From positions 1 through 23,278 of IMG/VR virus record IMGVR_UViG_3300009001_003397: a DNA stretch of 23,278 nucleotides; one strand, 5' to 3'. Shown here in pieces: positions 19 to 23,278 of this stretch. The first letter of the stretch is position 1. Each line of letters begins with the position of its first letter. Below the pieces are notes generated by a model. It made no database searches, had not been told where the DNA came from, and saw only the letters and a program-made list of their open reading frames with translations. Made by a program: the position numbers and the translations under genes. Source of the DNA: a virus.

Positions 19-576
19 TTATCTCAAGAACTCTCTCCAATCCAGGTCATACTGGATTGAATTTATTCTATGTACACCTATCAAATACAGCACATAACTC
101 GCCACACTTGATCCACGTCCTACCCCCCAAACAATGTTATTCTCACGCATAAAGTCTACAAGATAAACCATATAGCGTAGTAAGTCAATCATACTACGCT
201 TTCTGTATTCTTCATATTCTTCAGAAACTCTTGTCCATTCTTTTGTCGTTAAGACATTATTATCATCTGGGTCTTGTAGTTTTTCCATTAAAGTTGCTTG
301 TAGCCAGTTTAATACATTTAAGTTTTTGTATTCTTCAGGCATAAACCATTCGCCTTGACACACACCGTCAAAAGTCTTTTGATCTACATCTAGTGAGATA
401 TACTTTTGCAATGGATCCATACCTTGTTCTTCCATTGCACTATTAAACTTATCTACGTCATCACTTGGATCACATAGTACAACGTGTACTTTATCGCTAT
501 GACCACTATAGATCATATCGATAAGATCGCGGTTAGAGAATCGTGGTATTCCTAAAGAATCTGTTTTCATAAGCAT
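19..576 (-). CDS. Stand-alone DNA polymerase III alpha (DnaE/PolC)-like fragment protein
   Basis: A 185-residue protein whose second half aligns by eye with the start of the catalytic core of bacterial C-family DNA polymerase III alpha. Residues 78-90 (F-M-P-E-E-Y-K-N-L) match the region before the palm. Residues 124-150 form the helix leading to a glycine-rich G-V-G-R-G-S-S motif at 151-157, followed by an S-Y-V-L-Y-L-I-G helix and D-L-D-W-R-E-F-L at 177-184, matching the family's GRGS...LLFERFL stretch. The stop falls right where DnaE continues into its catalytic P-D-x-D-x-D motif, and no PHP domain is present, so the protein cannot be a polymerase alone. ATG codons lie at 576 and 570; neither has a clear Shine-Dalgarno. 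It follows the small helical gene by 9 bases and may be read from the same late transcript. It could be a regulatory or decoy nucleotide-binding protein, or half of a split gene continuing beyond the window. Family likeness is fairly secure; function is unknown. Confidence 0.6.
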   Translation of the reverse strand: MLMKTDSLGIPRFSNRDLIDMIYSGHSDKVHVVLCDPSDDVDKFNSAMEEQGMDPLQKYISLDVDQKTFDGVCQGEWFMPEEYKNLNVLNWLQATLMEKLQDPDDNNVLTTKEWTRVSEEYEEYRKRSMIDLLRYMVYLVDFMRENNIVWGVGRGSSVASYVLYLIGVHRINSIQYDLDWREFLR

Positions 577-1504: not shown

Positions 1505-4500
1505 TTAAGTATTGAACTGATAATTTGCGAACACAATATACTGTTCTTCGTTTGAATCTTTTGAACGTTTTAAAATATATCTATCAATATCAAAGTCCAT
1601 AACCTTAGGGTCGAACTCAGAATTATTTATATTTCTAATAATATCATCTGCTGTTCCTGGCAAGCAATAACACAACGGTACTGCACTTACATAATCTAAT
1701 TCTTGTAAACCTTGTTGTGCAGTTCTCATCCATAGCGGAAGATAGTTTCTTTCGTTTTTACCAACTTCTTTTAAGTTATCTCTCATATTTTTTATATTTG
1801 AAATATATCGAACATCATCCTTACTATTACTTACTTTTATAGCATCGGAATCTGATTTAATTGTATTAGTAGGATTTGGTCGCAGTCTATACGGTTCGGC
1901 TGGTGTAGTTTCTAGTATTACTTCAACAGACCCATTTCTGACTTCTAATTCAAAGTCATTGTTGTCTACATTTACATCTATAGCGTTGCCTTCGCGTGTT
2001 TCAATAACCAAAGTTTCGTTTTCTACAAAAACAAATCTAACAAGTTGTCTTCCATAAACTGGTAATTGATCAGCACCTAATCCAGTTTTAGTTACATCAT
2101 CTTTACCTGCGTACTGTATAGAATCCATTGTAACTTTTTCTTCTGTGTTTATACGGAAGCTTTTTCTAGTTTCGCCTTTTTCTGGCATAGCCGGATCAAC
2201 AACATCTATATAAACTACTTCATATATAGTTTCGCCTGTTACAGGATCTTTAGCCTTTGCACTTTTAATATCACCTAAAATATATTTTTTTCTTTTGTGA
2301 TTTTTTGCAGAAGCAGCTACAAATTTATCTACATCAGTTGCTTCTATGCCTGCATACACTAACACTTCTGGAACTTCTTGAATACCAAATTTTGGATCAG
2401 TTGGTCTGTATATTTTTGATGGTGTAAACACATCAGTATTACTTACAAAATTTTTGTAATACTCACGTTGATCTATAGGCAGTAATGGCCTCATAATTAC
2501 ATCAGTATATACTGTATTGTCTAAGTCTGCAACTTTTAAAGTGAATTCTTTTTGAATTGCAGTATAATCAAATCTATCTTTTGCCTTTATAGTAAACTTA
2601 TATTCTCTATCAAAAGTAGTGTCTCCTGGAAGTTTACCATCCCAAGTAACTGTTTTGTTTTCGAAAGTAGTTAGTCCAGGATTTGTTAGTGTTCCAAACT
2701 GTCTTGCTGCTCCTAAAATTTCTCCAGTGTAAGATAAAGTCATACCGAACGGAAGTTTTCCTGCTTCTAGTGTATAAACCATTTTTGTATCAGGAACAGT
2801 TGTTTGTGCTACAACTTTTAGTGTTGAATCAAAATTAGCATTAATAATTCCTAGATTACTATCAGTAATCCAATTGATGTTAGTGTCAACTTCTCCTAGA
2901 ATTTTTATTTCAAATGTTTTCTTACTCGATGGTATGTTTACAGGGTCTTCACTTGTAACAATAATATTTTTAAAGAATGCGTCATTTTTAAATAGTCCAA
3001 TACCTACATTAGAGCCACTTTGTATTTGGCGAGATAAATTTCTATCTAGCAAAATTCTATCTTCGTTGTCTCTTACTAGTTCTACTGTAATGTCTGTACT
3101 ATCTGTTCCTACAAAAAATTCTTTTATGTTACCGATAATTCTAGATCTACTGGTGCTAGGTATACGTATATTCCATACGTTGTTTGTAATTCTTCTTACA
3201 TATGATTTAGAACCATAAGTGGCCTCGAACGCTTGTTCTGTTGCTCTAATTCTATTTACTAAACTTAGCTTTTCTAAACTCTCTGCAACTTCTATCCATT
3301 TAGTTTGATCAAAGTCAACTTGTGGTTCACCTTGATCGTTTAAAATAAGCTCATTGTTTTCATTAAGTATAGGTGACATACTATGTGTAACTGTACATCT
3401 AAATATTCTTCCGTTGCCGCCACTTTCTAATGGCCATATTGCAAAGTCACCTACGTAATAATTTTCATATATCTCCATTATTTTAGGAGAAGCAGCAGGA
3501 TAAATTTCGTCATTAGATGGATTTGTCTGTCTAATATTATATTCTATGTAAGGAGAAATATTGCTTATTACATATGATTCAGATTCGCTAAATTTTAAAG
3601 TTCTTGACTGATATTTGTCTTTATTCTTTTCTGATAATCTGCTAACAAAGAAATGATCAGATCCTGAAGATGATGTTCTGCTTACTAATAGATTAATTTT
3701 TGGAGCAATTGTTTCGTCAACAACTATTATATCGTAATCTAGATTTCTATCATCTACACTTACAACTTTGTATAAATTTCCTTCTATTAAAACGTCTTGT
3801 CCTACTAGTTCAAATAAATCATTAATACCGTCAGCTGTGCCTGTTAAATCAGTTTTGTATATCTTAAAACTATTTTTCCCTAACAATGTATCTTCATAAA
3901 ATGTTCCAAATATTGTTAAAGTTTCTAAGTCAGATACTCTGCGTGTTGCTCTTACAGTAAATTTATAGTCTTGTATAATTGCAGGTTGATAAGGAATATT
4001 TCCGTAAAGTTCGCCTGTATTTTTATCTAAACTTAACCCTTTAGGAAGTTCACTTACTGATTCGTCATCGTTTAAATCTTCTAAACTATAAGTTACGGCA
4101 CCTTCTAATGTTGGATTGTTAATAATATCTAATACTATTGTAGTATAATTATTAGCCCTTCTATAACCTAAATCTCTAGGAGTTATCCAGGTTGGATTTC
4201 TAACATTAGTTGCATCGGCATTAAACAATGTAGTGCCTGCTTCCATTTCTGTGTTATCAGCTTTTAAGAAGTCATCTCCTACGACATAAATTCTAAATTC
4301 TCTGCGTTCAATGCTATTACCGTCACTTACTGTAACTGCAAACGGATAGTAGCGATTTAATTTAATTAAGTTACTACTTGGTGTTACAGTGTCTGGATCT
4401 CTTGTACCGTAGTAATCACTTACTGCTGCATAGTCCATTGGTAATGCACTATACGGAGCATCGTCATATCCTCCGCCTTCAAATCTTTTATCTAAACTTA

Positions 4501-5932
4501 GTAACGGTTCTGTTACGCCATAAATTCTTCCGTCTTCGGTTAGCGTTATGCCCGGAGGTAATACACCATCACCGTCAGCAATAAAGTATCTTAATTCATC
4601 TCCTGCACTCAGATCTGTATCTGTAGCTTGTAATTGGAAATCGATATACTCGCTATCTAAAATATAAAAAGTGTTGTTCGGTCCTACAGGTAACAGGCCA
4701 GGTGAAGTAAGCCAGGTCGGAGCATCAGGTCCTGAAACAGCAAGCTCGATAGTTTTATCTTCAAAAATATTTTTATATGTTGCTCTTATAACTGCATTAA
4801 ATGATTTATTGTAGGCAACTTCGTACACTGTACCCACAACGTTATTATCTTCAAATCTCAGTCCCGGCGGCAATTCACCGCTTATAAGTTCTGTTTGAAT
4901 GCCTTCTATATTATACAAAGGTAACGGAATGTTAACTATATTCCTTTCAATTAGTGTTGATAATCTTTCACCAGTATTTGATTTCCATAAGCTATTGCTA
5001 ATGATTGCTTCTTCAGGAACTGGTGTATCAAATGTCTTTGCGTTTTTAGTTGATGTTCCTACGATGTATGGATATTCTGGTATTGAAAGAGATTCATCTT
5101 CAAAAGTTAAAAAGTATGCATAGGTACCATCTGGAAAGTCTGGGGTTACACAGTATCTTCCATTAAATGTATCAAGTTCACTTCTTGTTTTTACATATTC
5201 ATAATCTTCTAAGAAGGTACCTGCAGATAATACAACTGCTTCACCGTCAGATAGTGTTATAGTATCTGTGTATTTCCAATTAATATTTCTGTGAGAGTCG
5301 CCTAATTTTTTTCTATAGCTTGATCTAATTTGTTCTACACCTGAAAAACTATCGGTGCCTGTTGTGTAACCGTATGGACCGTATATAGGATAGCCGTCAA
5401 AACAGAATCCTAAAATTTTACTATGTCCGTCTGGATGTCTATAGTGGTCTCCTTGAAAACTAGTTTCACTGTAATAAAGTCTACTTCCCCACACATTAGG
5501 ATAATTCCAACTGTTGTTTAAAAAGCTACCTGTTCTATAATGATATTCGCCAGCAGCAATACTTGCACCATCAACATCAATATTAAAGATATCCGGAAAA
5601 TTAATTTTATTAAATGTAAGATTAACAGGAGGTAATTTGCTTAGTTTTGGAAATTTCTTTGTTCCAAAACTTTGTTTGAATACAACACCGTTTACAAAAA
5701 TACCAATCGCTTCGTCTGTATTAGCTTGCGGATACTGTGAATTGTCACCAGCTCTGTATAAAAAACTATAGTTATAATTTTGTTTTTCTATGTTGCTAGT
5801 GTCTGTTCTTGCAGGCACAGGATATCCATCCCCAACTACGGTTAAAAAGTTTTTGTTCTTTAAAAACACAGTTTCAGATCTACCAATGCCGGTAGTTGAT
5901 ATTAAACCTAATCCTGATGGGTCAAACGTCAT
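1505..5932 (-). CDS. Virion structural protein with YHYH domain and Ig-like (He_PIG-type) domains
   Basis: A 1,475-residue protein. Residues ~110-292 match the YHYH family: Y-H-Y-R at 130-133, G-D-H-Y-R-H-P-D-G-H at 161-170, F-D-G-Y-P-I-Y-G-P-Y-G-Y at 178-189, N-G-R-Y-C-V-T-P-D-F-P-D-G-T-Y-A-Y-F at 257-274 and Y-P-Y-I-V-G at 287-292. The last histidine of the family's naming motif is arginine here. Downstream are at least four Ig-like units of the putative He_PIG type, each marked by an L-P-x-G-[LIM]-x-L...G-x-[IL]-x-G signature: LPPGL at 354, LPPGI at 458, LPKGL at 629 and LPFGM at 1060. The C-terminus is rich in basic and aromatic residues (L-P-L-W-M-R-T-A near 1400). The start at 5932 has AAGGA 10 bases upstream and a CGATAAATAC late promoter. 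No signal peptide is seen. It is probably a long tail or baseplate appendage; the ligand of the YHYH domain is unknown. Confidence 0.85.
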   Translation of the reverse strand: MTFDPSGLGLISTTGIGRSETVFLKNKNFLTVVGDGYPVPARTDTSNIEKQNYNYSFLYRAGDNSQYPQANTDEAIGIFVNGVVFKQSFGTKKFPKLSKLPPVNLTFNKINFPDIFNIDVDGASIAAGEYHYRTGSFLNNSWNYPNVWGSRLYYSETSFQGDHYRHPDGHSKILGFCFDGYPIYGPYGYTTGTDSFSGVEQIRSSYRKKLGDSHRNINWKYTDTITLSDGEAVVLSAGTFLEDYEYVKTRSELDTFNGRYCVTPDFPDGTYAYFLTFEDESLSIPEYPYIVGTSTKNAKTFDTPVPEEAIISNSLWKSNTGERLSTLIERNIVNIPLPLYNIEGIQTELISGELPPGLRFEDNNVVGTVYEVAYNKSFNAVIRATYKNIFEDKTIELAVSGPDAPTWLTSPGLLPVGPNNTFYILDSEYIDFQLQATDTDLSAGDELRYFIADGDGVLPPGITLTEDGRIYGVTEPLLSLDKRFEGGGYDDAPYSALPMDYAAVSDYYGTRDPDTVTPSSNLIKLNRYYPFAVTVSDGNSIERREFRIYVVGDDFLKADNTEMEAGTTLFNADATNVRNPTWITPRDLGYRRANNYTTIVLDIINNPTLEGAVTYSLEDLNDDESVSELPKGLSLDKNTGELYGNIPYQPAIIQDYKFTVRATRRVSDLETLTIFGTFYEDTLLGKNSFKIYKTDLTGTADGINDLFELVGQDVLIEGNLYKVVSVDDRNLDYDIIVVDETIAPKINLLVSRTSSSGSDHFFVSRLSEKNKDKYQSRTLKFSESESYVISNISPYIEYNIRQTNPSNDEIYPAASPKIMEIYENYYVGDFAIWPLESGGNGRIFRCTVTHSMSPILNENNELILNDQGEPQVDFDQTKWIEVAESLEKLSLVNRIRATEQAFEATYGSKSYVRRITNNVWNIRIPSTSRSRIIGNIKEFFVGTDSTDITVELVRDNEDRILLDRNLSRQIQSGSNVGIGLFKNDAFFKNIIVTSEDPVNIPSSKKTFEIKILGEVDTNINWITDSNLGIINANFDSTLKVVAQTTVPDTKMVYTLEAGKLPFGMTLSYTGEILGAARQFGTLTNPGLTTFENKTVTWDGKLPGDTTFDREYKFTIKAKDRFDYTAIQKEFTLKVADLDNTVYTDVIMRPLLPIDQREYYKNFVSNTDVFTPSKIYRPTDPKFGIQEVPEVLVYAGIEATDVDKFVAASAKNHKRKKYILGDIKSAKAKDPVTGETIYEVVYIDVVDPAMPEKGETRKSFRINTEEKVTMDSIQYAGKDDVTKTGLGADQLPVYGRQLVRFVFVENETLVIETREGNAIDVNVDNNDFELEVRNGSVEVILETTPAEPYRLRPNPTNTIKSDSDAIKVSNSKDDVRYISNIKNMRDNLKEVGKNERNYLPLWMRTAQQGLQELDYVSAVPLCYCLPGTADDIIRNINNSEFDPKVMDFDIDRYILKRSKDSNEEQYIVFANYQFNT

Positions 5933-6684: not shown

Positions 6685-8232
6685 TTATCCGCCGATGCGT
6701 AACTTTGTAGAACTGTTGAATTTGTTAAACAAATATCTATTTCCACTTCCTAGTAAACTTCTGTATTCACTATAGTCGTTGTCAAGCCCAGTTGAATATA
6801 GTTGATCAGCTTTTGCTGAGTTTTGTATAAACGCTTTTGCTTCTGCAACAGTTGCATTTGGATTTAATTGTAACCATAGTGTAATCATACCTGCTACTTG
6901 GGGTGCTGCCATTGACGTACCGGTAATATTACAAATTCTAAAAGTTTCATCTAGTGGATAAGGACCATCAGTAAATTTATTTACATTACTAGTTGCACTC
7001 ATTATATCAGTGCCGGGAGCAAACACATCAACACCTGGTCCTGTTTCAGAACTTTCTGTTTTTTGTTCTAGTCCGCCTGTATGTTCTGCACTATCTATAT
7101 TACCTACATTTAATGCACGTTCGCTATAAGGACTAGAACCTCTATGATATTGTACAGATCCTGTATCTGCTGCAATAAAGTTATCATAATCAACGCCGCC
7201 GGTTATATCTATTTTATGATAGTTATTCCCTGCTGCGATAATAACGTGTACACCTGCATCAATAAGTTCTTCTATATCTGTATCAACAGAAGTAATTCTT
7301 ACATTAGTTTTAAAATTAAATCCACCTGCTGCACCTGATAGTGGAACAAGGCCAAATGCTAGTCTTTCAGATGTTGAATCAATATCTGTACCTGTATACA
7401 ATGTTCCTCTGTGTGTAAGGTTAATTACAGAGTTGTAAAATCTGTTGTAGCCCCAACTCATATTAACAACAGTAGGTCTTTTATATCCTGTAGCAGGATC
7501 GACTGGTTTGTTTTGGTGCCATTCTTTGATTACATCGAAACAATCACTTATAGGTATGCCGCTATTAGGGTCATCAACACCTTGTAATCCAGCTACTTTG
7601 ACTGCATATATTTTTGCATTTTTAGCCCAACCGTATGTTTTACCCGCAGTAATACCTGCACAGTGAGTGCCGTGACCGTCGTAGTCTGTGTAATGTCCTG
7701 CAGGCATAGTGCCACCACCACTAAATCCGTTATACCAGTCTAGTTGTTGCACTCTAGTTACACCATTAGCATCCTGAAATTCAGGATGATCTGCTTGTAT
7801 GCCGCTGTCTTGAATAACTACGTCAACTCCAGTACCATCTAGTGTATAGTTGTATCCACCTGTTACAGTAAGCCCGTCATATGGGTTAGTTGCTTCGTTA
7901 ACTCTGCGCAATCCCCAATTAACAAACTCGCCTCTATCTAAAGTTGTTTTAGTAAAGTCGCTGTTTTGTACTGCTCTAATACCAATTTCTAGTGAAGGAT
8001 CTAAGTCCGGACGTAGTGTTACGCCATACACTCTTGGATCTGATCTAAGTGTTTCAGCCTCTTCGTCAGTAAGCATATAGTGTGTATTGCGCTGAGAAGC
8101 AGGGCGGGCATTTGCAACAGTAGCACTCCTGCTTGGAATTGCACCAGCCCCAGTAGTAGCGATCATTTCTTGATTAAATGCTTCGTAGTCTACACCTTTG
8201 TTTAAACTTACAATATATTCTTTTTCGCTCAT
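6685..8232 (-). CDS. Subtilisin-family (S8) serine protease encoded within the tail-fibre cluster
   Basis: A 515-residue peptidase S8 homologue with all catalytic elements visible: Asp142 in V-V-I-Q-D-S-G-I, His187 in D-G-H-G-T-H-C-A-G, oxyanion Asn336 in I-I-A-A-G-N-N and Ser440 in G-T-S-M-A-A-P-Q-V-A-G. Residues 1-~78 resemble an I9-type pro-region: Y-I-V-S-L near the start and L-T-D-E-E-A-E-T-L-R-S-D-P-R-V at 55-69, just before the mature-domain lead-in. No hydrophobic signal peptide precedes it, unlike secreted bacterial subtilisins, so it should fold in the infected cell's cytoplasm. The start at 8232 follows AGGAAGC; gaps are 14 bases to the 1,060-residue gene and 12 to the 235-residue gene. 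Co-transcription with fibre genes suggests it is a virion part or matures fibre proteins; both are inference. Enzyme family is near certain. Confidence 0.93.
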   Translation of the reverse strand: MSEKEYIVSLNKGVDYEAFNQEMIATTGAGAIPSRSATVANARPASQRNTHYMLTDEEAETLRSDPRVYGVTLRPDLDPSLEIGIRAVQNSDFTKTTLDRGEFVNWGLRRVNEATNPYDGLTVTGGYNYTLDGTGVDVVIQDSGIQADHPEFQDANGVTRVQQLDWYNGFSGGGTMPAGHYTDYDGHGTHCAGITAGKTYGWAKNAKIYAVKVAGLQGVDDPNSGIPISDCFDVIKEWHQNKPVDPATGYKRPTVVNMSWGYNRFYNSVINLTHRGTLYTGTDIDSTSERLAFGLVPLSGAAGGFNFKTNVRITSVDTDIEELIDAGVHVIIAAGNNYHKIDITGGVDYDNFIAADTGSVQYHRGSSPYSERALNVGNIDSAEHTGGLEQKTESSETGPGVDVFAPGTDIMSATSNVNKFTDGPYPLDETFRICNITGTSMAAPQVAGMITLWLQLNPNATVAEAKAFIQNSAKADQLYSTGLDNDYSEYRSLLGSGNRYLFNKFNSSTKLRIGG

Positions 8233-12894: not shown

Positions 12895-13043
12895 TATTTC
12901 GGGTTCCCCACTTTAATTCTTAACTTCCCTGATGTTGCTACTGCTTGTCTAGGCTGTTGATTCTTTGTATCTTCACTTGTAGGAGCACCTTGTTTGATCA
13001 AGTTATTGATATTTTTTGTTTGTTTTCGTTCTTGTTCAGACAT
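12894..13043 (-). CDS. 49-residue basic/polar protein, stop-start coupled on both sides
   Basis: A small gene filling the space between two fibre genes. The protein begins M-S-E-Q-E-R-K-Q-T-K-N-I-N-N-L-I and ends G-K-L-R-I-K-V-G-N-P-K. It is Lys/Gln/Asn-rich, has no Cys and no membrane segment, and looks largely disordered apart from a short N-terminal helix. Evidence that it is real: its ATG shares one base with the stop of the 3,041-residue gene (TAATG), its stop shares one base with the ATG of the 476-residue gene (TAATG), and AGGA lies 8 bases before its start. No frame but this one bridges the 150-base gap. It could be a fibre-assembly chaperone or a minor virion peptide; function is unknown. 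Confidence 0.8.
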   Translation of the reverse strand: MSEQERKQTKNINNLIKQGAPTSEDTKNQQPRQAVATSGKLRIKVGNPK

Positions 13044-13507
13044 TAGTGCTTTCCTACTACAACTTCTATAATTCCACGGTCACCATCAGTTTTGTCTTCA
13101 AGTGCCTTACCAATAATAGTACCAACTTTAGGATCATTATCTACAATAGCATATCCTGGTACAGCACTAGTTACAAGTATATCACCTTTGTTAACTTTTC
13201 CAATAACTTTACAAGGAACTCGTCCTTGCAATGCTAGTGCTACAATATTGTCACCTTGTGCGTGTGAGTTCATTAAGTGTGCTGGATTAGTAGATACAAC
13301 TCCTGCTGCACTTCTTTGTCCTTTAGCAGTACATACAGTTACTTCTTGACCGCCGCCAAACACTAATACAGTACCTGGTTCATAATCAGCATCGGCCAAA
13401 TAGTTTTCTGCCAAGTCAGCGTAGTAAGCTTCGGTTGCAGTACCACGGAAGAACGTTGCATATACATTAGCATATTTTACAGTTGTACTACCGATATCGT
13501 AAGCATT
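13043..13507 (-). other. Peptidase G2-like C-terminal domain region of the giant fibre protein
   Basis: Codons ~2888-3041. The order Y-D-I-G-S, D-L-A-E-N-Y, E-P-G-T-V-L-V-F, A-G-V-V-S-T-N-P and G-D-I-L-V-T-S resembles the D-x-A-E...G-V-V-S-x-N-P pattern of G2-type self-cleaving C-terminal domains on phage fibres. Whether it cleaves itself cannot be told from sequence. Confidence 0.45.
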
Positions 13508-16500
13508 GTCTGTATCAGCTATTACGCCCGATGAACTAAAGATAAACGGTGTAACACTTGAACTTGTTGCACTATCTGCTGTAACAATACCTACTTCGCC
13601 GGCTGTAGTCTTACCTGTGTTTCCGCCGATTGCAATACCAGTTGAAGCCGAACCCTTTTCGCCCGGTGCCTCAATAAAGCTACTGTAGATCCAATCTACA
13701 GCAAGTGCCGACTCTCCGTTTAAGTTTGAAATATTTTTTAGAGTACTTTCAGTTACACCAGCTGAACCAATGTCAACACATCCTGGTATTTCTACATCCG
13801 GTCCAAATGATGTTGTGCCAGTTTGACCAACTGATCTCAATATTTCACCTTGAGCCGGCGTTTTAAATACAAGCTCTAGAGAGTTTAGACTTAATACTTC
13901 GTAACTCGGATCACCTCCAAGTATCAAGGAGTTAACCTGTATACTACCGTTTTGATCTGTTTTTACAATTGAGTTAGTTTCACCTGTAATACTAACATTT
14001 GAAATACCGTATGTTCCTTCGCCTGTTTTAATAAGTGCTTGACCAGGATCATCTGTAGGTAAAACTGCATCAACAAAGTCATCGTCTGTTAGGCCGCCGC
14101 CTTCTGATATCACTGTGCTAAATGGAATTTCATCTATATCGTTATCTGAACTATCTCCACTATAGTTACCTAGTACAGTTCCGTCTTGTATTCTTTGTAT
14201 AGCTCTTAATGGAAGATCTCCGTTTTCAATAGTTAACCAACCATTAATTGAAGTAAAGATACCGCTATCAAAACTTGCTACACCTAAATTACTTTGGTTA
14301 ATGTTTACAGGATTTGCTCTAGTAGTTGCTGCATTTAGGTTTAATTTACTTTGAGAAATGCCTGCGTTTGCTGCAATATCAGCATTAACAATAGTGTTTG
14401 GTTTAATTTGAACATCTATTTCTGTATAGCGATCAGTAACTTCATTACCTACTACTGTAGTTACTCTATTAGTTGATACTTGAATGTCGCTTGTTGTTGA
14501 ATATACACCATTTGCCCATTCGTCAACTGGACCGTCTACAACTAAACCTTCTGGACCACCAATAACTGTAATTACATCAGGATCAGGTGATGTTGCTACT
14601 GGCTTGCCGTCACTGAACTCGCCTAGTACAGGGTCGTATATGATTTCTACAATATTACCTTCAAGACCAACTAGTCCGTTCTTAACATCAACAATAGTAC
14701 CTGTTGCGCCTGTTATAGTACCACTGATAGTTTGGCCAACTTCAAACGGTCCACTTACTATTGTTCCAGCATCAATGATAAGTTTTTTATAACCAGTACC
14801 TACTAGCAACTGACCTTCGTCGTAATCATTATACTCTACTGAACGTAGATCTTTAATTTCGTCGCTTTCGCCGCCTCCTGCATCAACATATGCTTTAGTT
14901 GCAGCATCTGAATCTGAGTTAGGTGCTTTTAGGTTTGTAATTGTATTGCCTGCTGCATTCAAATCGTCTGTCATTGGAACAGCACCGTTTGGAGCAAGCA
15001 CACCTGGGCCTAATTTGTTAGCAACTGGATTACCATTTACATCATAACCTAAACGTCTGTTAACATATCCACGAACAGCACCTTCTGTTGGCACTGAGTC
15101 CGAAGCGTTATCTGTCATTGCTGTGTCTGTTGAGAATTCAGTAACAACAACACCACGTTTAAATCCTAGACCATCCACGTCCGAAAGCGCAATACTTGCA
15201 CTAAATGTAACTGTACCAGTACCTTGGTCAACGCTGAAGAATTTACCTACACGGAAAATACCATTTTGGTCTGTACTTACAAAGAACACACGACCTTTAC
15301 CACGTTCAACAGTTTCTTTGGATTCGTCCTTTTCACCTGGCTCACCAAAGATAACGTTTGGATAGTTTGAATCGTTAAATCCGCCAGTACCAATGTCTAA
15401 GAAGTCGTGTCCTGTAGCACGACAGGTTGAAATGTTAACTGTAACATCACCTTTTGCACCTGCTTTTAGACCTGCACGTAGAGTAATTAGCTCTGATCCT
15501 AGTACAACTGGACTGTGTATACCGGTTGCGTTTGTTTGGTTAATAGTATCTATGTCTGTTAGTTCTACAATTTGATATTGGTTATCTTCTGCAATTGGAA
15601 CAATAGTATCTCGCAAAGTAGTAATAGTACCAGCAGTTGTATATGGTCCAAATGTAGTGCCGTCAACTGTTGTTGTTAAACCACTATCACTGTAAAGTTC
15701 AGCAGTAGTTCCTGTAGTGTTGTTTACATAATAGCTATTGCTATTAAGTTGTGTCATACCTTCAACACCGGTAATTGTAATAAGTTGACCGTTTTCTAAA
15801 TTAATGTCTGTGTCAAAAGTAACAACTACTGGATTAGCTTGAGTTGCTCCAGTAATATTTGTTGTAACGGCAGTTGATTTCACACCTCTTGCATTATAAA
15901 CATAGTGCTTCTTACCTTGCCAAGTTATGATCGGTGCATATGTTGCTAAACTATCAGTAGTCCAACCTAGTGGTCTATTAGTAAGAGGTGTTCTTAAGTT
16001 ATTGTTTAAACGGAATACTTCGTTGTCATCTAGTACTGGTTGTACAGCTAATATTGTGTCTCCTGCTGTTCCACCTTTAGTAGTTCCGCTAGTAAGTTTG
16101 TTTATTCCTCCAGGTTCATAAACTTTGTTTACGGATTCTTGTGCCTTTGCACTATCAATAAGCATTCTAATATAATCGTAACCTTCGTCAAATCCAGCTT
16201 GTGACGTATTAGCAGGCAGTTCGTTGCCTAAACTGTCTGATGTTAAGAAGCTAATACTTCTGTATACAAAGCTTGGGTTTTCGTCAAATATTATCGCAGT
16301 CGAAGGACGAATTGTTAGTACATCTGGTCTTGCTAAGTCTGCAATAATATGTGTTTGGTTACGTCTGTATTGTATTATTGTTCCATAAGGTACAGGATTT
16401 AATAAACCATTTTGGCTAAACTGTGCATCGCCAGTTGAGAAGTTCAATTTATAAATTGTTCCTGTAAAGTACGGAGTAGTTGCTTCTACTGCAATAGTAC

Positions 16501-19500
16501 CTGTAATTGATACTCCGGTAATTAAACCTGCTGATGGTATAGCATCGCCGTTGTCAACTTCAGTAATTGTAATTGTTGCATCGTTTGTTGGAGTCGTACC
16601 ACCAAGTTGATCACCTGTAATTGTTAGTGAATCTCCAACTCGATATCCTGTTCCAGGATTTTGAAGTATTACGCCATATCCATCATTAATAGTTTTAGTA
16701 ATTGTAAAGTTTGCGCCTGCTTCTAGTCCTGTTGCATCAACTCCACCTACAAAGTTAGCGTTTATTTCACTTGTTATTTCGTCACCAACGTTTAGATATG
16801 ATCCTACAATATGCTGTACTACTTCTACGTTTGCTACTTCATAACGTGCAAACGCAGGACGAGCAGGATGATAAATGTCAAATTCTGATCTGTTTGACGG
16901 AGCATCTTTCATATCATAAACAAATAAGTTTAGACTTTCTGCTTCGTTTCTAAAACCAGTGCTGTCAACTCTAATCGGAACACCGTCGACCCCGTAATTA
17001 ACCGGTCCTGTTCCATTTGTAATCTGGTTTGTAGTATCAAATGCTCCATCTACGTTTGTTAGGTATACTGTTTTTGAACCGTTTACACTTGTGTCAACTG
17101 CTACAGTGCCTTCTGCTAGTGTAACTGCCTGTGTAAATACATCTCCAGCTACAGCAACGATTGGATTTGTTACTGTAAGTATTACATCATTTGTAAATGC
17201 TTTAGCTGGTTGCACCATATCTTGGTACAATTCAATCCCGTCTGGAATTTCGTTCGGATCTGCACCTTCAGCAACTAGGCCAAATTCACCATAACAACTT
17301 GAACCTGTCAGCGATCTAATCTCAGCACCGTTCTTTGAATAGTAAGAAACATAACAATAGTATGTAAACATACTAACCATTTCTGATAGCGCACCGTTCA
17401 CAGCAACTAGACCGTATCCTAAGTCGTTAATCTGTGTAAAGTCGTTACCAAGCATAGAACGGTTACCAGCTGTTTGTAATGTAATTGGAATCGGAGAATT
17501 TACACTTTGTACAGTTCTGTGAATAATTAAAGTTCTATTTGCAGCAATATCATTTGCTGCTGCGTGTAGATTAATATCAGCAATTAACGCTTCGTAGTCT
17601 GGGTATGTTGGATTGTCTGGCAAAATATTTAGATTGCCGTTTCTAACTACATCTTCAATTAATCCGATTCTATCAGTAAGTAGTGTTGATTCAGTAGCAG
17701 TTGCAAATGGAGCAACTTGACTCTGCACTTCAACGTTTCCTGTTGTAGGTGTAACTGCGACACCTTGAATAATATTAGAAACTACAGATGCTAAATGTAC
17801 ATATGCGTCAGCTGTTGCTGTTCTTTGATCTACTGGTAATTGTGCTACTGCACCGTCATAATAAGCACGAGCATTAGTTATTGTTGCACTATTACCACCG
17901 TATAAAACATCATATGTAAGTGCATCAACAATGTACCTTACATCTCTAGCACATTTAACTTGGTCGTATCCCGTTGGCGGCGTATTTGCATTTACATATG
18001 CAACAACTTCTGCTGCAATAAATGCTCTGTTAGCCTGTAATTGAGTTGCAGCATCATCTGCATCTGTTGTTGGCAATACATCTGGATTTGGAAAAACTAG
18101 TGCATCTGCAACACCGTCGCCTGGCTCACTTACGCTCTGTACACCATTAACGATAATGTCAACAACTTCGTCAAAGGCTGTAGTAACACGAGTTTCTGCT
18201 GTTACATAATCATCTACTTCAGCTAAAGATAAAACTTCGCCTTTAGCAAATTGTATAGCCTGTGTTGTTTGTGACTGTTGGTTTCCTTGTACATAAGATC
18301 CGGTTGCTCTTTGATACGCAAGACCATTATATACACTGTTATAGTTTGTTCCTAATGCAGTATCGTAACGAGCACCATCTAAAATGTATCCTGTGTCTCT
18401 AGCACACTTATCTTCGTTAAATTCAAAATCGCCTACGCTGTCAAGGTCAATACCTGTAGAAAGTTGCGAAGTAACACCTGTAAATCCTATACCATCGTTT
18501 GAGCTAGGATCAAGTATAATTTCTGCTGTGCCAGCAGCCGGATCATAATTTGTTACAGCGTTAACTTGGAAACGTCTGCCATCTACATAAAATGCACAAG
18601 GTACTTGAGGACGTCTTACAAACAAACCTTGTGGTTCTTGTTGGCTTCCAAGACTCTTAATTGCAAGTCTAAAGTTACTGCCATCTACTTTTTCTATAAC
18701 TTGTACTGCCGAGTTACCTACGAATGCATCAACAAACAATCCACCTCTAAAGTCTTGTCTGTTCACTGACCCAGAGAAACTTGAACCTGTTTGTACATAT
18801 GGTGATTTAGTTAATACTTGTCCTTCTGGGTCAAGTACAAGCATAAAGCCACCGTGTCCTTGTACAGTCATATTACGTAAGATAGTAGCATCGTTCATTA
18901 AGAACACATCCATTTCATCGTTGCGTAATGGTGGATTATATTCTGAGTTAAATGCAAACTGTACAGTATTAATTAAGTTTCTTAGTACTGTAGTAGGACC
19001 GTCAATCTCTCTCCAATATGCTGTAATTTCATTTGCGCCAAAAACACCGCCTGAAGTGTGTTCTTTAGTAGGAGTGTAGTAACGGTCTACGCCTGCTGCT
19101 GTAAATTTAACAACATTACCTAGTCTATAAACTTTTCCTGGTTGCCAAAAACTTGGTTCTCCTGAACCGTTAAATAAATCTTGCGAATATTCAGTGTTAA
19201 CACCTGGACTTGCTGGTGCGCCTTGGGGGCCATAGAGTGTTGTTGGTGATTCGCCTTTTATTAGTTTTGCTGCAACAGTATAAATGTGTTCTATACCTGC
19301 AACTGTTTCTGTTTCAGTTCCTGCTTCGACTGCTCCTGCGTAGTATTGGCCTTGTGCTTCTAGTGAAAACTCATTGCCGCCATTACGGAAGTCTTTAATA
19401 AGTGCATCAACGATCAAACGTGCATCGCGCTCACACTTAGTTCTCGAATATCCAGCTGAACCGATAAGTGCAGGATATGTAGTTTCTACATAGTTAACAA

Positions 19501-22168
19501 CTTGCTCTGCAATAAATTCTTTATTGTCAATAAGTGTAAGTGCATTTGTTTCCCATTTACCGACGTTTTCGTAACCTGCACCTGTATTTTTTAGTCTATC
19601 AGGTTTAGTTAAGTAATGATAACCAAAGTAACCGTCAACTGCATCTGTTAATGGGTTAACATACTTAATACCATTAGGAACTGAGTCTACAATAATAAGA
19701 ATATCTGCTGCTCCGTTGTTTCCTAAGAATTCATCACTAATAATAATTCTTTCACCTGCTTGAAAATCTTTACCTGCGTTTGTAATAACAACATTAGAGA
19801 CAGCACCGTCTGCATCAATAGTAATATCAAATGTTGCTTCTTTACCTAGTTTATCTGTAGACCATTGATCTACAGAATATACAGTTGTAGTTCCTGTACT
19901 TCTTAGTGCATCTATTTGAGATGTAAAATTAATATCGCTAATTGAGCTTGGGCCTAGTACAAGTCCGTCAAATTCTGCGTCACGGTAGAAGAATGTATTT
20001 GCCCAACGTGATTGTGATACACGATCTTTTGGACGTATAATTACACGGCGGAATTCGTCACCCTTGACTGACACGTTAGCCGGAACACGGATTGGATAAT
20101 CTTCTTCGTAAATACCACTTTCAATTCTAATTGAAATTTGAGTATTTCTTACATAGTTTCCGTATTCAATTTCTTCACCTTCTTCAAACTCAATTGGTTC
20201 AAGTAGCTGAATTTCAATTTCATCTGTTTCGGCTACGCTTACTACTCTCGGTCCTGCTTCGTATCTATAATCAATAATACGTCCAACTGCACCTGAGTTT
20301 TTACCACGTACAACTTTACCTGGAATGATATCTGTATTTTCTGGATCAGCCTGATCGATAAATCCTAAGTTTCCGTTTCCAACATTTAGTTTATATGTTG
20401 TTACACCGTCAACGATACTAGGAGCATCAAGGACACCTGCTGTTGGACCATTAATAATGTTTAAGATAATATTAAATTTTGATTCGATAACATTGTCTGC
20501 AAGGCTATCTGGAACAATAGCAGGCTCGATGTACTGAGCCACTCTATTTTGGTATGCAACAGGTGGTGCAGTATTAGTCAACACATAATTTGTAACTAGT
20601 TCTTTTGCATATTCAATGCCTGCTACAGTTTCAACTAATTGAGATCCAATTGCTTTTTGTGCGCTAACGTTTGAATAATAACGTATACCTGACCAACGTG
20701 ATAGATAGTTTGCGTTATCCCCTAGTAGTGCATCTAAGCTCACACTATCAAGAATATATTCTACATCTCGTTGACATATTTCTTCGCTATATGTACCTGC
20801 AAAGTCGGGGAAAGTTGCATTGATATATGCTGTAACTTCTTTAGCAACCCATTCTTTGTTGCGAACAATCAAACTTCTTGCGTTGTTTCTTCCAGAAGGT
20901 GGCGAAGCAACTCCGGCTGTTACAATAGAACTGTTCCCTGCACCTGTTCCAAATGTCATAGTTTGCATATAAGGACCTGGTTCTGCAGGAGCAGCAATCA
21001 TTATTTCTTCTGCTTTACGGGCGGCAGCATTTACAGTTCTAAATGAATATGCTGGTGCACGGCCTTCTTTCCCTTTCGGAACGCCAATCATTCTATCATC
21101 GCCTGATGTACTTACATACAGGTTAATATTTGTAAATGAAGCAGCGTTGTCTACATATAGTTTTGTTGCTGCTTGAAGATCGTCTGGTCCGTTTGGTAAG
21201 CCAGTCCCGACAAGTTCGCCAGGATGATCAAACAGATTAAGAGCACCAGTCATTGAATCGCCTTGACGTCTTACAATTGACTTACGTGGTAATGCAATAT
21301 TACTTAACCAGTTTCCTTCTAGTTCTGGATCGTATGCAGCATCTGTAATAGAGAACGATCCCGAGCCTCCTGCAAGTGGAATGCGTCCTGTTGCATTAAT
21401 TGCATCAGATTCTGTTTCGTATAATCCAATAGCATCTTGATTAATAACTTTAATATAATAAGTTGTTCCGGTAGTTACTCCAAACGGATCAGTACCAGAA
21501 GAAGCAAAAACAAATCCTGATCCGTTGTATGCTTCAGTTAGTCCGTGGCCTGGTATAGTTAAATTACCAATTGAGAGACCAGTTGCTGTCAGTGTATAAA
21601 TTGAAGAACTTGCAGGTTCATCACCTAGACGCAGGCCGCCACCTGCAACATCTTTAGACTGATAATTTCTATCAGCATATGATTTGTTAATAACAAGATC
21701 GTCTATTGAAATTTGGTTATCTGGACCTCTATGCACAGCGTTAAATGTGTCAACAGCATCTTGGTTAACAGTAATACCTGCTATTGCTTGTGTAGCACCA
21801 TCTAAAGGACCACCTAATGTCGGAGCAGGGTCGTTAGATACTTTAGATACAAGTTGTCTTAATATTACTTTACCGTCTATTGAAAAATCAAACCCAATAG
21901 TATCAGGTGATCCGTCCAAGCTATTATCAGAAGCAAGTTCTAAAAGGTTTAGTCCACTACCATCTGAACGTACAACAGGAATTTTGTTTTCATTCCCTTC
22001 ATAATTGTTAGGGGTATCACTTAGGTCTGTAAACGATATTTGTCCACCTATACCAAATACAGCATAAAGTTCTTGGAAGTTTTCGTTTACTTTACGAAAC
22101 GACTCGCGAATGCTATCGCCTGTGCCGTCATTACCTTCGATGCCGATATCAATTTGTTGCTTTGCCAT
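13043..22168 (-). CDS. Giant fibre/baseplate protein with beta-helix segments, cysteine-containing repeats and G2-like C-terminal domain
   Basis: A 3,041-residue protein. It opens with the shared anchor motif (1-35), then a D-L-S-D-T-P-N module (48-54). Tail-fibre repeats of the G-D-S-M-T-G...A-A-T-K-L-Y-V-D type lie at 303-340, and a second A-A-T-K-A-Y-V-D at 2422-2429. Predicted right-handed beta-helix stretches lie at ~675-750 and ~1085-1230 (I-L-R-N-M-T-V-Q-G-H-G-G). Four copies of a helical unit with C-x-R-D-x-x-x-I-[LV]-D lie at ~437-530, 882-970, 1250-1342 and 1379-1470. A module at 1562-1645 (A-G-N-R-S-M-L-G-N-D-F, then N-D-L-G-Y-G) recalls T4-like cyanophage structural proteins. The C-terminus, after Y-D-I-G-S at 2890, has A-D-L-A-E-N-Y and E-P-G-T-V-L-V-F (2917-2937), with A-A-G-V-V-S-T-N-P, resembling peptidase G2-like fibre C-terminal domains. 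The ATG at 22168 has CGGAG 10 bases upstream; it lies 15 bases after iscA and has no late promoter of its own. Confidence 0.85.
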   Translation of the reverse strand: MAKQQIDIGIEGNDGTGDSIRESFRKVNENFQELYAVFGIGGQISFTDLSDTPNNYEGNENKIPVVRSDGSGLNLLELASDNSLDGSPDTIGFDFSIDGKVILRQLVSKVSNDPAPTLGGPLDGATQAIAGITVNQDAVDTFNAVHRGPDNQISIDDLVINKSYADRNYQSKDVAGGGLRLGDEPASSSIYTLTATGLSIGNLTIPGHGLTEAYNGSGFVFASSGTDPFGVTTGTTYYIKVINQDAIGLYETESDAINATGRIPLAGGSGSFSITDAAYDPELEGNWLSNIALPRKSIVRRQGDSMTGALNLFDHPGELVGTGLPNGPDDLQAATKLYVDNAASFTNINLYVSTSGDDRMIGVPKGKEGRAPAYSFRTVNAAARKAEEIMIAAPAEPGPYMQTMTFGTGAGNSSIVTAGVASPPSGRNNARSLIVRNKEWVAKEVTAYINATFPDFAGTYSEEICQRDVEYILDSVSLDALLGDNANYLSRWSGIRYYSNVSAQKAIGSQLVETVAGIEYAKELVTNYVLTNTAPPVAYQNRVAQYIEPAIVPDSLADNVIESKFNIILNIINGPTAGVLDAPSIVDGVTTYKLNVGNGNLGFIDQADPENTDIIPGKVVRGKNSGAVGRIIDYRYEAGPRVVSVAETDEIEIQLLEPIEFEEGEEIEYGNYVRNTQISIRIESGIYEEDYPIRVPANVSVKGDEFRRVIIRPKDRVSQSRWANTFFYRDAEFDGLVLGPSSISDINFTSQIDALRSTGTTTVYSVDQWSTDKLGKEATFDITIDADGAVSNVVITNAGKDFQAGERIIISDEFLGNNGAADILIIVDSVPNGIKYVNPLTDAVDGYFGYHYLTKPDRLKNTGAGYENVGKWETNALTLIDNKEFIAEQVVNYVETTYPALIGSAGYSRTKCERDARLIVDALIKDFRNGGNEFSLEAQGQYYAGAVEAGTETETVAGIEHIYTVAAKLIKGESPTTLYGPQGAPASPGVNTEYSQDLFNGSGEPSFWQPGKVYRLGNVVKFTAAGVDRYYTPTKEHTSGGVFGANEITAYWREIDGPTTVLRNLINTVQFAFNSEYNPPLRNDEMDVFLMNDATILRNMTVQGHGGFMLVLDPEGQVLTKSPYVQTGSSFSGSVNRQDFRGGLFVDAFVGNSAVQVIEKVDGSNFRLAIKSLGSQQEPQGLFVRRPQVPCAFYVDGRRFQVNAVTNYDPAAGTAEIILDPSSNDGIGFTGVTSQLSTGIDLDSVGDFEFNEDKCARDTGYILDGARYDTALGTNYNSVYNGLAYQRATGSYVQGNQQSQTTQAIQFAKGEVLSLAEVDDYVTAETRVTTAFDEVVDIIVNGVQSVSEPGDGVADALVFPNPDVLPTTDADDAATQLQANRAFIAAEVVAYVNANTPPTGYDQVKCARDVRYIVDALTYDVLYGGNSATITNARAYYDGAVAQLPVDQRTATADAYVHLASVVSNIIQGVAVTPTTGNVEVQSQVAPFATATESTLLTDRIGLIEDVVRNGNLNILPDNPTYPDYEALIADINLHAAANDIAANRTLIIHRTVQSVNSPIPITLQTAGNRSMLGNDFTQINDLGYGLVAVNGALSEMVSMFTYYCYVSYYSKNGAEIRSLTGSSCYGEFGLVAEGADPNEIPDGIELYQDMVQPAKAFTNDVILTVTNPIVAVAGDVFTQAVTLAEGTVAVDTSVNGSKTVYLTNVDGAFDTTNQITNGTGPVNYGVDGVPIRVDSTGFRNEAESLNLFVYDMKDAPSNRSEFDIYHPARPAFARYEVANVEVVQHIVGSYLNVGDEITSEINANFVGGVDATGLEAGANFTITKTINDGYGVILQNPGTGYRVGDSLTITGDQLGGTTPTNDATITITEVDNGDAIPSAGLITGVSITGTIAVEATTPYFTGTIYKLNFSTGDAQFSQNGLLNPVPYGTIIQYRRNQTHIIADLARPDVLTIRPSTAIIFDENPSFVYRSISFLTSDSLGNELPANTSQAGFDEGYDYIRMLIDSAKAQESVNKVYEPGGINKLTSGTTKGGTAGDTILAVQPVLDDNEVFRLNNNLRTPLTNRPLGWTTDSLATYAPIITWQGKKHYVYNARGVKSTAVTTNITGATQANPVVVTFDTDINLENGQLITITGVEGMTQLNSNSYYVNNTTGTTAELYSDSGLTTTVDGTTFGPYTTAGTITTLRDTIVPIAEDNQYQIVELTDIDTINQTNATGIHSPVVLGSELITLRAGLKAGAKGDVTVNISTCRATGHDFLDIGTGGFNDSNYPNVIFGEPGEKDESKETVERGKGRVFFVSTDQNGIFRVGKFFSVDQGTGTVTFSASIALSDVDGLGFKRGVVVTEFSTDTAMTDNASDSVPTEGAVRGYVNRRLGYDVNGNPVANKLGPGVLAPNGAVPMTDDLNAAGNTITNLKAPNSDSDAATKAYVDAGGGESDEIKDLRSVEYNDYDEGQLLVGTGYKKLIIDAGTIVSGPFEVGQTISGTITGATGTIVDVKNGLVGLEGNIVEIIYDPVLGEFSDGKPVATSPDPDVITVIGGPEGLVVDGPVDEWANGVYSTTSDIQVSTNRVTTVVGNEVTDRYTEIDVQIKPNTIVNADIAANAGISQSKLNLNAATTRANPVNINQSNLGVASFDSGIFTSINGWLTIENGDLPLRAIQRIQDGTVLGNYSGDSSDNDIDEIPFSTVISEGGGLTDDDFVDAVLPTDDPGQALIKTGEGTYGISNVSITGETNSIVKTDQNGSIQVNSLILGGDPSYEVLSLNSLELVFKTPAQGEILRSVGQTGTTSFGPDVEIPGCVDIGSAGVTESTLKNISNLNGESALAVDWIYSSFIEAPGEKGSASTGIAIGGNTGKTTAGEVGIVTADSATSSSVTPFIFSSSGVIADTDNAYDIGSTTVKYANVYATFFRGTATEAYYADLAENYLADADYEPGTVLVFGGGQEVTVCTAKGQRSAAGVVSTNPAHLMNSHAQGDNIVALALQGRVPCKVIGKVNKGDILVTSAVPGYAIVDNDPKVGTIIGKALEDKTDGDRGIIEVVVGKH
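17759..18034 (-). repeat. Cysteine helical repeat, copy 4 of the giant fibre protein
   Basis: Residues ~1379-1470: N-R-A-F-I-A-A-E-V-V-A-Y-V-N lead-in, then K-C-A-R-D-V-R-Y-I-V-D-A-L, then a Gly-Gly-Asn turn and a further helix ending I-I-Q-G. Confidence 0.7.
18143..18421 (-). repeat. Cysteine helical repeat, copy 3 of the giant fibre protein
   Basis: Residues ~1250-1342: K-C-A-R-D-T-G-Y-I-L-D-G-A-R-Y-D without the usual N-K-E-F helix before it; ends V-V-D-I-I-V-N-G. Confidence 0.65.
19259..19525 (-). repeat. Cysteine helical repeat, copy 2 of the giant fibre protein
   Basis: Residues ~882-970: N-K-E-F-I-A-E-Q-V-V-N-Y-V-E lead-in, then K-C-E-R-D-A-R-L-I-V-D-A-L and E-T-V-A-G-I-E-H. Confidence 0.7.
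20579..20860 (-). repeat. Cysteine helical repeat, copy 1 of the giant fibre protein
   Basis: Residues ~437-530: N-K-E-W-V-A-K-E-V-T-A-Y-I-N lead-in, then C-Q-R-D-V-E-Y-I-L-D-S-V and E-T-V-A-G-I-E-Y. Confidence 0.7.
22061..22168 (-). repeat. N-terminal anchor-like motif, copy in the giant fibre protein
   Basis: Codons 1-36: M-A-K-Q-Q-I-D-I-G-I-E-G-N-D-G-T-G-D, then R-E-S-F-R-K-V-N-E-N-F-Q-E-L-Y. Protein-level copy of the motif opening the 476- and 235-residue proteins. Confidence 0.8.
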
Positions 22169-22183
22169 TTAAAAATGCTCCGT

Positions 22184-22549
22184 TTATATTGCTGGACTTG
22201 CTAATTTGTCCATATCAAAGTTAACACTAACACCGCATCCACAAGCTGATTGTGCATTAGGATTGTTTACTTCGAACATAGATCCCATAAGATCTTTTTT
22301 GTAATTTATTTCTGTACCAATTAAAAACATTAATGAGTGTTTGCCTATTACAAAGGTACAATTGTTATCTGTTTTTATAACTTCGTCACCTTTTTCTAAT
22401 TCTTCAGGAGACTGCATCATCCCCCATTCATACTCAAATCCTGCACAACCTCCGCCTTTAATATTCAATGTAATTGCATAGCACTCATTTTCTTGACATA
22501 GTGTGTCAATTTGTGCTTTTGCAGCGTCAGTTAGTGTACAGATACTCAT
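22184..22549 (-). CDS. IscA/HesB-like A-type Fe-S cluster carrier
   Basis: A 121-residue A-type carrier. The three family cysteines are present: Cys35 in G-G-G-C-A-G-F-E-Y-E-W, and Cys103 and Cys105 in A-C-G-C-G-V-S-V, preceded by the conserved F-E-V-N-N-P-N-A segment (92-99). A-type carriers hold or hand over [2Fe-2S]/[4Fe-4S] clusters to apo-proteins. Extra cysteines at 4, 18, 23 and 64 are not part of the family signature. Its length is slightly above the ~107 residues usual for bacterial IscA, mainly from the insert around 45-60. The ATG at 22549 has AAGGAC 5 bases upstream, and an ATAAATA late element precedes it. The gene is 15 bases ahead of the giant fibre gene and probably in the same late transcript. 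IscA-like genes are known as auxiliary genes in marine T4-like phages; the viral target protein is unknown. Confidence 0.9.
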   Translation of the reverse strand: MSICTLTDAAKAQIDTLCQENECYAITLNIKGGGCAGFEYEWGMMQSPEELEKGDEVIKTDNNCTFVIGKHSLMFLIGTEINYKKDLMGSMFEVNNPNAQSACGCGVSVNFDMDKLASPAI

Positions 22550-22610: not shown

Positions 22611-22898
22611 ATGTATTTGAATGAATATAAAAAGCAAACACGGCACGTTCGTAGTAGCAAAACAGGTAAAGAACACACTTACACACGTGAAGTAACTTAT
22701 TGTGTATTTCGATGTGACAGTTGTGATGCAGAGTTTGAACGTGCTAGAGGTTCAATGGATCCTAAACGGTTGAGCAATTCCTACTTTCACGTATGTAAGA
22801 ACTGTGATAGTAAGAAATTTGCTCAAAAGAAAGGCGTAGAGCAAAAACAGAAATGGAATATGACTGCTAGTAGCTCTACGCCTATAAGTAAATTATAG
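22611..22898 (+). CDS. Zinc-ribbon protein of unknown function
   Basis: A 95-residue basic protein, the only credible plus-strand gene in the window. Two C-x-x-C knuckles (Cys35/Cys38 in F-R-C-D-S-C-D and Cys62/Cys65 in V-C-K-N-C-D) are 23 residues apart, with R-G-S-M-D-P-K-R between them, and fit a single zinc ribbon. Cys31 and His60 are further possible ligands. The flanks are Lys/Arg-rich (residues 7-20 and 68-81), consistent with nucleic-acid binding. No Shine-Dalgarno is evident before the ATG at 22611; no better in-frame start is seen. It diverges from the late iscA-like gene and converges with the copper-domain gene, sharing 6 bases with it. Its opposite orientation suggests control separate from the late block. 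The tail of the gene contains one arm of a strong inverted repeat. Could be a small transcription or nuclease-associated factor; not determinable. Confidence 0.8.
   Translation: MYLNEYKKQTRHVRSSKTGKEHTYTREVTYCVFRCDSCDAEFERARGSMDPKRLSNSYFHVCKNCDSKKFAQKKGVEQKQKWNMTASSSTPISKL
22824..22883 (-). terminator. Probable terminator for the leftward copper-domain transcript
   Basis: Perfect 11-base inverted repeat: AGGCGTAGAGC at 22832-22842 and GCTCTACGCCT at 22873-22883, with a 30-base loop. Read on the minus strand, the stem is followed by TTTCTTTTG (plus-strand 22824-22832), as in an intrinsic terminator. It lies just inside the zinc-ribbon gene's 3' end. The loop is longer than usual. No T-tract follows it on the plus strand. 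Confidence 0.55.
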
Positions 22899-22899
22899 G
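22881..22899. other. Short hairpin over the two convergent stop codons
   Basis: CCTATA (22881-22886) and TATAGG (22894-22899) form a 6-bp stem with a 7-base loop. It covers the TAG of the zinc-ribbon gene and the TAA of the copper-domain gene. Weak by itself; it may be chance. Confidence 0.3.
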
Positions 22900-23278
22900 T
22901 TCTTCCAAGTAAATGCTCCGAAGAACATTTCGTCCTCTGACATCTGTCCCCACGGTACTTCTCTGCTTGGGTCAGGATTCATAGGATTGTTAGCTGAATT
23001 ATCAAACCAACCTTCTACGTGTAATCTTGTACCTTGTGGTAAAAACTTAGGTTCACGCCAAGTATAAGAAAGTTGCCAAGCATATTCATAACGTGGAATG
23101 TCGATAAGTTCTTCTACTTCACCGTTTGGATAGTATGCTGTTGCTCGCATTGCTTTACCTCGGAAGTGCATATGAGGTAAAAATGTATGCAACATTACAT
23201 CATTCTTTAGTACAACATCAGCTTCTTGTTTGAAGTTAGGATCGTATGGCGGAATAGGTGTCCACGTGTTAGGGAATA
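22893..23278 (-). CDS. C-terminal part of a copper type II monooxygenase-like (PHM/DBM C-domain) protein, cut by window edge
   Basis: The frame is open to the right edge, so the visible 127 residues are the C-terminal part of a longer protein. The in-frame ATG at 23195 is unlikely to be the start: the 27 codons before it (ending ...D-V-V-L-K-N-D-V) continue the domain. Recognisable are P-H-M-H-F-R-G-K, matching the H-x-H copper pair of the C-terminal domain of peptidylglycine and dopamine beta monooxygenases, and S-E-D-E-M-F-F-G near the end, matching the family's x-x-x-E-M-C stretch that gives the methionine copper ligand. The cysteine after that Met is Phe here. Also seen: D-N-S-A-N-N-P-M-N-P-D-P and W-Q-L-S-Y, typical of bacterial redoxin/cytochrome-linked versions. 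N-terminal domains lie outside the window. Its stop overlaps the zinc-ribbon stop by 6 bases. Whether it is active cannot be told. Confidence 0.75.
   Translation of the reverse strand, partial: FPNTWTPIPPYDPNFKQEADVVLKNDVMLHTFLPHMHFRGKAMRATAYYPNGEVEELIDIPRYEYAWQLSYTWREPKFLPQGTRLHVEGWFDNSANNPMNPDPSREVPWGQMSEDEMFFGAFTWKNL

Follow-up and report, generated by a model that had tools for sequence, protein, structure and literature searches.

A tandem pair of haem- and copper-site genes of PHM type in uncultivated T4-like phages, a candidate auxiliary metabolic module

We analysed the window, an entire IMG/VR record of 23,278 bases, which ends within a gene (here called B) that belongs to a pair of neighbouring paralogues, A and B, carried by many T4-like phages. 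With modest confidence, we regard A and B as a phage auxiliary metabolic gene pair for periplasmic, haem-fed copper monooxygenases, a reading in which export, metal loading and catalysis are predicted from conserved motifs and from structural models. The evidence comes from viral contigs that carry complete copies, from the invariance of the haem and copper ligands, from the modelled fold and from cellular relatives in one family of Pseudomonadales.

A truncated copper-domain gene among phage tail genes

At the edge of the window, B lies on the minus strand with codons at 22893–23276, a frame that is open to the contig edge and encodes 127 residues plus a stop (Table 1). The translation contains the motifs PHMHFRGK, DNSANNP and SEDEMFF. 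The preliminary description had read the H-x-H pair and the E-M motif as the three CuM ligands, and all three are present in the fragment. Because the window is the whole record, B could be completed only through the contigs of its relatives. The stops of B and of the small convergent gene share 6 bases (22893–22898), confirming the overlap from which B had been described as fixed in the viral genome.

The content of the window is that of a phage tail and baseplate region. A 1475-aa protein (1505–5932, minus strand) with a YHYH domain and putative Ig (He_PIG) domains matches phage virion structural and baseplate families, and a subtilisin-like protease gene (6685–8232, minus strand; PHROG 'protease') lies amid the tail genes. 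At the opposite end, positions 19–576 (minus strand) hold the beginning of a DNA polymerase III alpha gene of bacterial type, which is unusual in the company of T4-like tail genes.

Table 1. Position of B, its CuM ligands and its neighbours in the window.
Feature	Position	Strand	Remark
Gene B, truncated by contig edge: C-terminal CuM domain of haem c / PHM-type protein	22893..23278	-	
H-M-H, two CuM His (H321 and H323 in the full-length relative L002)	23166..23174	-	Invariant in 70/70 full-length B
Met of E-M motif, third CuM ligand (M403 in L002)	22926..22928	-	Invariant in 70/70 full-length B
Small convergent gene, 95 aa, weak zinc-ribbon resemblance	22611..22898	+	Kept beside B in the window's phage group
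IscA/ErpA-like Fe-S cluster assembly gene	22184..22549	-	PF01521, E 8.5e-17; conserved neighbour
Tail-fibre-like protein, 3041 aa, T4 gp9/10-type N terminus	13043..22168	-	Marks surroundings as phage

Relatives of B in many phage contexts

A scan of IMG/VR with the B fragment revealed 105 viral stretches encoding relatives, which excludes a chance open frame; the best 80 of these, taken as one per contig, were 80–98% identical over the fragment. The small convergent gene and the Fe-S gene adjoined B in 23 of these 80 contigs, with the tail-fibre gene also present in most. These shared neighbours rule out host DNA or a chimera near position 22900. The Fe-S gene adjoining B in the 23 contigs is possibly another auxiliary gene. 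Other copies of B occurred in at least eight very different phage contexts, and the flanks of B and A elsewhere included tail tube, UvsW-like helicase, NAD-dependent ligase, ribonucleotide reductase and tail fibre genes. Across 20 large records tested, T4 Gp23 was above cut-off in 5 and the large terminase in 6, and contigs bearing A or B together with Gp23 or terminase reached 340 kb. Tail sheath (PF04984) matched none of the records tested, and this is a profile that partial or divergent phages could escape. Shared synteny, phage flanks and the presence of Gp23 or terminase on the same contigs together identify B as phage DNA, and its carriers are many uncultivated, often large T4-like phages with one or two such neighbouring genes.

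A paralogous partner directly upstream

Beyond the preliminary description, full-length loci revealed that B is paired with a paralogous partner, A, which is not visible in the window and which, in the window's phage, would fall past the contig end. A comprises ~427 residues, lies directly upstream of B on the same strand and is 25–31% identical to it. This arrangement held in 99/99 B locus entries whose upstream sequence extended for 1.5 kb or more, and B lay downstream of A in 110 of the 129 A entries with enough downstream sequence (no recognisable B in 19), where both totals count some contigs twice because two scans overlapped. Scanning with A yielded 232 matching viral stretches, and A also occurs without B.

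Upstream of A, within up to 160 bases, the sequence TATAAATA was present in 8 of 50 viral loci versus 0.8 expected, these loci not being independent of one another. We take TATAAATA to be the T4 late promoter sequence, and its position is suggestive of expression during infection.

One haem site and two copper sites in each protein

Full-length B, recovered from related viral contigs, comprises ~412 residues, the haem site lying at the N terminus and a PHM-type copper core of two domains after it; the second copper domain that had been anticipated upstream of the fragment is thus seen in the full-length relatives. Its N terminus is hydrophobic and, as judged by eye, resembles a signal peptide; phage A and B alike start directly with such a signal-like sequence, followed by the haem domain. 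Motifs in B occur in the order CxxCH and MPP (haem c), VMHHML and LQLHY (CuH), and PHMHFRGK and SEDEMFF (CuM). Comparison with published PHM residues, by motif and by spacing, gave the copper ligands as H187–H188 plus H250 for CuH and H321–H323 plus M403 for CuM, with all six positions invariant in 70/70 full-length B proteins. The haem and copper ligand set of A is the same and was invariant in 55/55 sequences, with CuH formed by H184–H185 plus H231 and CuM by H311–H313 plus M396.

The CxxCH motif and the Met of MPP were likewise invariant in both sets (55/55 A and 70/70 B), and the combination of CxxCH with a distal Met is that of a mono-haem c-type cytochrome. A link to redoxin or cytochrome relatives had been proposed from the fragment; the cytochrome half of it stands, in the form of the N-terminal haem c domain, whereas the redoxin half applies only to cellular relatives. 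Phage A and B lack the N-terminal AhpC-TSA/redoxin domain of redoxin–cytochrome c–PHM proteins.

Profile searches placed these proteins poorly. A match to Pfam Cu2_monoox_C, as the copper-domain proposal implied, was not obtained: the window fragment scored 14.7 bits against a cut-off of 23, and full-length copies scored 11–16 bits or had no match, which is a limit of detection and not a defining biological feature. Full-length copies matched Pfam cytochrome c models only below cut-off, PHROGs held no family for B and NCBIfam returned none above its curated cut-off. Searching the PDB with A and B by sequence profiles alone did not reach PHM.

The assignment of fold comes from AlphaFold models built on the viral alignments, which were of low confidence (mean pLDDT 60.6 for A and 50.5 for B, with the haem domain modelled without confidence). 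For both models, all top Foldseek and VIA rows were PHM or DBM structures. The best matches of A were 6nck by Foldseek (E 7.6e-10) and 4zel and 1phm by VIA-align (Z 13.8 and 13.1), compared with Z 7.2 for unrelated rows; those of B were 8dsj (E 7.6e-7) and 3mic (Z 9.5), compared with Z 6.6. Matched ranges stopped near the CuM Met in both proteins, as expected. These low-confidence models support membership of A and B in the PHM/DBM copper type II monooxygenase superfamily by their two-domain fold, and so favour the original suggestion of a copper monooxygenase-like C-domain, with activity a prediction from that fold.

Cellular relatives in one family of Pseudomonadales

Searching 84,980 species genomes for close relatives of B returned a single MAG contig (L082:1-6996; public contig JALRBG010000283.1, titled Pseudomonadales bacterium), which carries a short A–B pair. 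We rejected it as a real host locus for the short pair, as it is a bacterium–phage chimera joined near position 4800: G+C is ~0.57 up to ~4,800 and ~0.43 thereafter, and A starts abruptly at residue ~176 in low-complexity DNA, with B next. The arrangement of A followed by a short B was found only in viral contigs and in this chimeric one.

Cellular B-type proteins are longer (570–700 residues) and begin with a redoxin domain (for example, PF00578 at 3e-10 in the protein of L206), which in the nearest relatives of B is mostly without the peroxidatic Cys, while cellular A-type proteins have ~450 residues and no redoxin. Both types share ligands and domain order with phage A and B. Within one GTDB family of Pseudomonadales, B-type proteins occurred in 104/137 genomes (E ≤ 1e-100) and A-type proteins in 106/137 (E ≤ 1e-60), with up to 12 A-type copies per genome among the matches listed, often in tandem; across the whole order, relatives were present in about 24 of the 294 genomes sampled. 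This is a very large lineage-specific expansion of cytochrome c–PHM paralogues. Four loci from the family (L256, L257, L258 and L259) hold tandem arrays of three to five such paralogues each. At another cellular locus (L205:6049-7731), a redoxin–cytochrome–PHM paralogue has lost the CuM His-x-His and Met while an intact A-type gene lies in the same operon, which suggests that the PHM scaffold can serve without CuM and counts against the monooxygenase reading. Cellular A loci encode a 312-residue secreted protein (24/26), and their other neighbours include MFS transporter, cupin and GMC oxidoreductase genes and TonB receptors.

Probable capture, exchange and selection

Against the sampled cellular proteins, phage A was up to 84% identical to its closest relative and phage B about 52%. 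In a maximum-likelihood tree, all phage B proteins grouped among the redoxin proteins as a single clade with its own long stem, and phage A fell in two places among cellular A proteins. These placements suggest that B was probably captured once, long ago, with loss of the redoxin domain, and that A was probably captured at least twice, the second time beside an already resident B; in one A/B clade, transfer may have run in reverse, from phage to cell. The same Pseudomonadales family is probably the source of phage A and B and may also include the hosts.

Movement between phages is evident at the level of DNA, since B in the window is closer to copies amid unrelated flanks (86–88% identical to B in L005, L007 and L009) than to the copy in L054 (81%), whose flanks are the best match to the window. 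Both genes are under strong purifying selection (median dN/dS, 0.10 for A and 0.11 for B). Decayed genes are ruled out by these ratios of about 0.1 together with the invariant ligands. The pair is thus host-derived by its cellular relatives, fixed in phages by its flanks and selected by its dN/dS, the properties of an auxiliary metabolic gene.

Proposed function and alternatives

PHM and DBM draw their electrons from ascorbate. From this chemistry and the anatomy of the proteins, we propose that A and B would be exported to the periplasm, each protein joining a cytochrome c domain with one haem to a PHM-type copper core of two domains, and that the haem, in the role that ascorbate has for PHM and DBM, would accept electrons from the respiratory chain of the host. 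The electrons would pass from the haem to CuH (His-His plus His) and on to CuM (His-x-His plus Met), where O2 would be activated and used to hydroxylate a small organic substrate at a C-H bond. Phages would have taken both genes from a host family running many such enzymes, dropping the redoxin domain of B, and would keep them to sustain or widen host oxidation during infection. Conservation of the export signal, of the haem motifs and of the ligands at each copper site points to a working periplasmic enzyme, whose role is best explained as the catabolic oxidation of an organic compound; the electron path and the benefit to the phage are likewise suggested by PHM/DBM chemistry and anatomy. A more specific version, which we hold tentatively, is that A and B form a two-enzyme, PHM-fold periplasmic module on one pathway, in which the B lineage was kept while A was replaced from hosts, reprogramming the substrate range of a bacterial family whose own genomes have a dozen or more such enzymes; A and B would then be the first copper monooxygenases of PHM fold encoded by phages.

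The substrate would differ from that of PHM, since the residues for peptidylglycine are replaced. Arg240, Asn316 and Tyr318 of PHM, which we take to be those binding the glycine carboxylate of peptidylglycine, correspond to Q/H/W in A and L/F/A in B in a motif alignment near the CuM ligands; a peptidylglycine hydroxylase proper is ruled out by their absence. It is quite improbable, on the same grounds, that the two proteins act as a PAM-like couple that oxidises N-acylglycines or C-terminal glycines and hands the products to an NHL-propeller lyase of the host. NHL-propeller proteins do occur in 6/26 cellular loci with A-type genes and partly resemble PAL, one half of PAM (E 2e-23 and 1.7e-13 against the PAL structure 3fvz), but other NHL proteins match these neighbours as well as or better than PAL, and tblastn of the cellular A-locus neighbours, NHL proteins included, against the viral loci found none, leaving no PAL-like partner within the phages by this search. 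The lack of conserved PHM substrate-binding residues would equally suit a periplasmic pair dealing with copper, oxygen, NO or peroxide, as redox buffering or detoxification during lysis, in place of organic hydroxylation. A cytochrome c with two copper sites could work as an oxidase or reductase, and cellular B relatives carry a peroxiredoxin-like domain. We nevertheless consider this unlikely, given that phages dropped the redoxin domain, whose peroxidatic Cys is mostly missing from the nearest cellular relatives anyway, and kept every CuM ligand although at least one cellular relative does without them.

Export, the strictly lytic look of the phages, and the spread of the genes over many lineages with exchange among phages would also suit modification of the infected cell's surface, or of a secreted peptide or lipid, so as to block superinfection or other competitors. 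The closest relatives, however, sit in metabolic-looking chromosomal operons (MFS, TonB, GMC, cupins) and not in defence loci, and we judge this idea improbable. That B is simply host DNA or an assembly artefact, a bacterial gene at a contig end, is extremely improbable: B does lie at the contig edge and the pair-bearing bacterial MAG contig is chimeric, but the same neighbours recur in 23 independent phage contigs, many other phage contexts carry the gene, and the G+C of B in the window (40%) is near that of the phage (37%) and unlike that of the nearest cellular loci (46–58%). The preferred reading thus remains a pair of haem-fed copper monooxygenases acting on an organic compound.

Relation to known systems and significance

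PHM and DBM are copper enzymes with which animals make hormones, and A and B have in common with them the two-domain fold and the order in which the copper ligands occur (HH ... H ... HxH ... M). They differ in having a cytochrome c domain at the N terminus where PHM and DBM rely on reduction by ascorbate, in being only 11–16% identical, in lacking the peptidylglycine-binding residues and in occurring as tandem paralogues in phages. Among published cases, the closest are pmoC, carried by large phages of fresh water (PMC7674155), and amoC, nirK and norB in marine viruses (PMC8115048). Phage pmoC and amoC are also phage-borne genes for copper-dependent oxygenases and are thought to boost host oxidation (PMC7674155, PMC8115048), but they encode single CuMMO membrane subunits that need host partners, whereas A and B are complete soluble proteins, predicted to be exported, with an unrelated fold and a haem of their own. 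The preliminary description had called the gene unfamiliar from T4-like phages, in keeping with our searches: neither A nor B matched any of 50,697 annotated phage records, and we found no report of PHM/DBM-like or PHM-fold genes in phages in the open-access literature (preprints aside), where absence is weak evidence. The auxiliary metabolic gene as a kind and the PHM fold are already known; new, as far as we searched, are their combination, the occurrence as paired paralogues and the loss of the redoxin domain.

Copper oxygenase genes of phages have so far been single membrane subunits (pmoC and amoC) in the literature consulted here. If the proposed reading is true, phages would encode an entire extracytoplasmic oxidation step, in the form of complete paired proteins in hundreds of viral contigs. 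The finding also points to a bacterial family whose genomes are full of such paralogues. That phages picked and preserved two of them would indicate which matter in infection, and would offer a compact pair in which to find the substrate.
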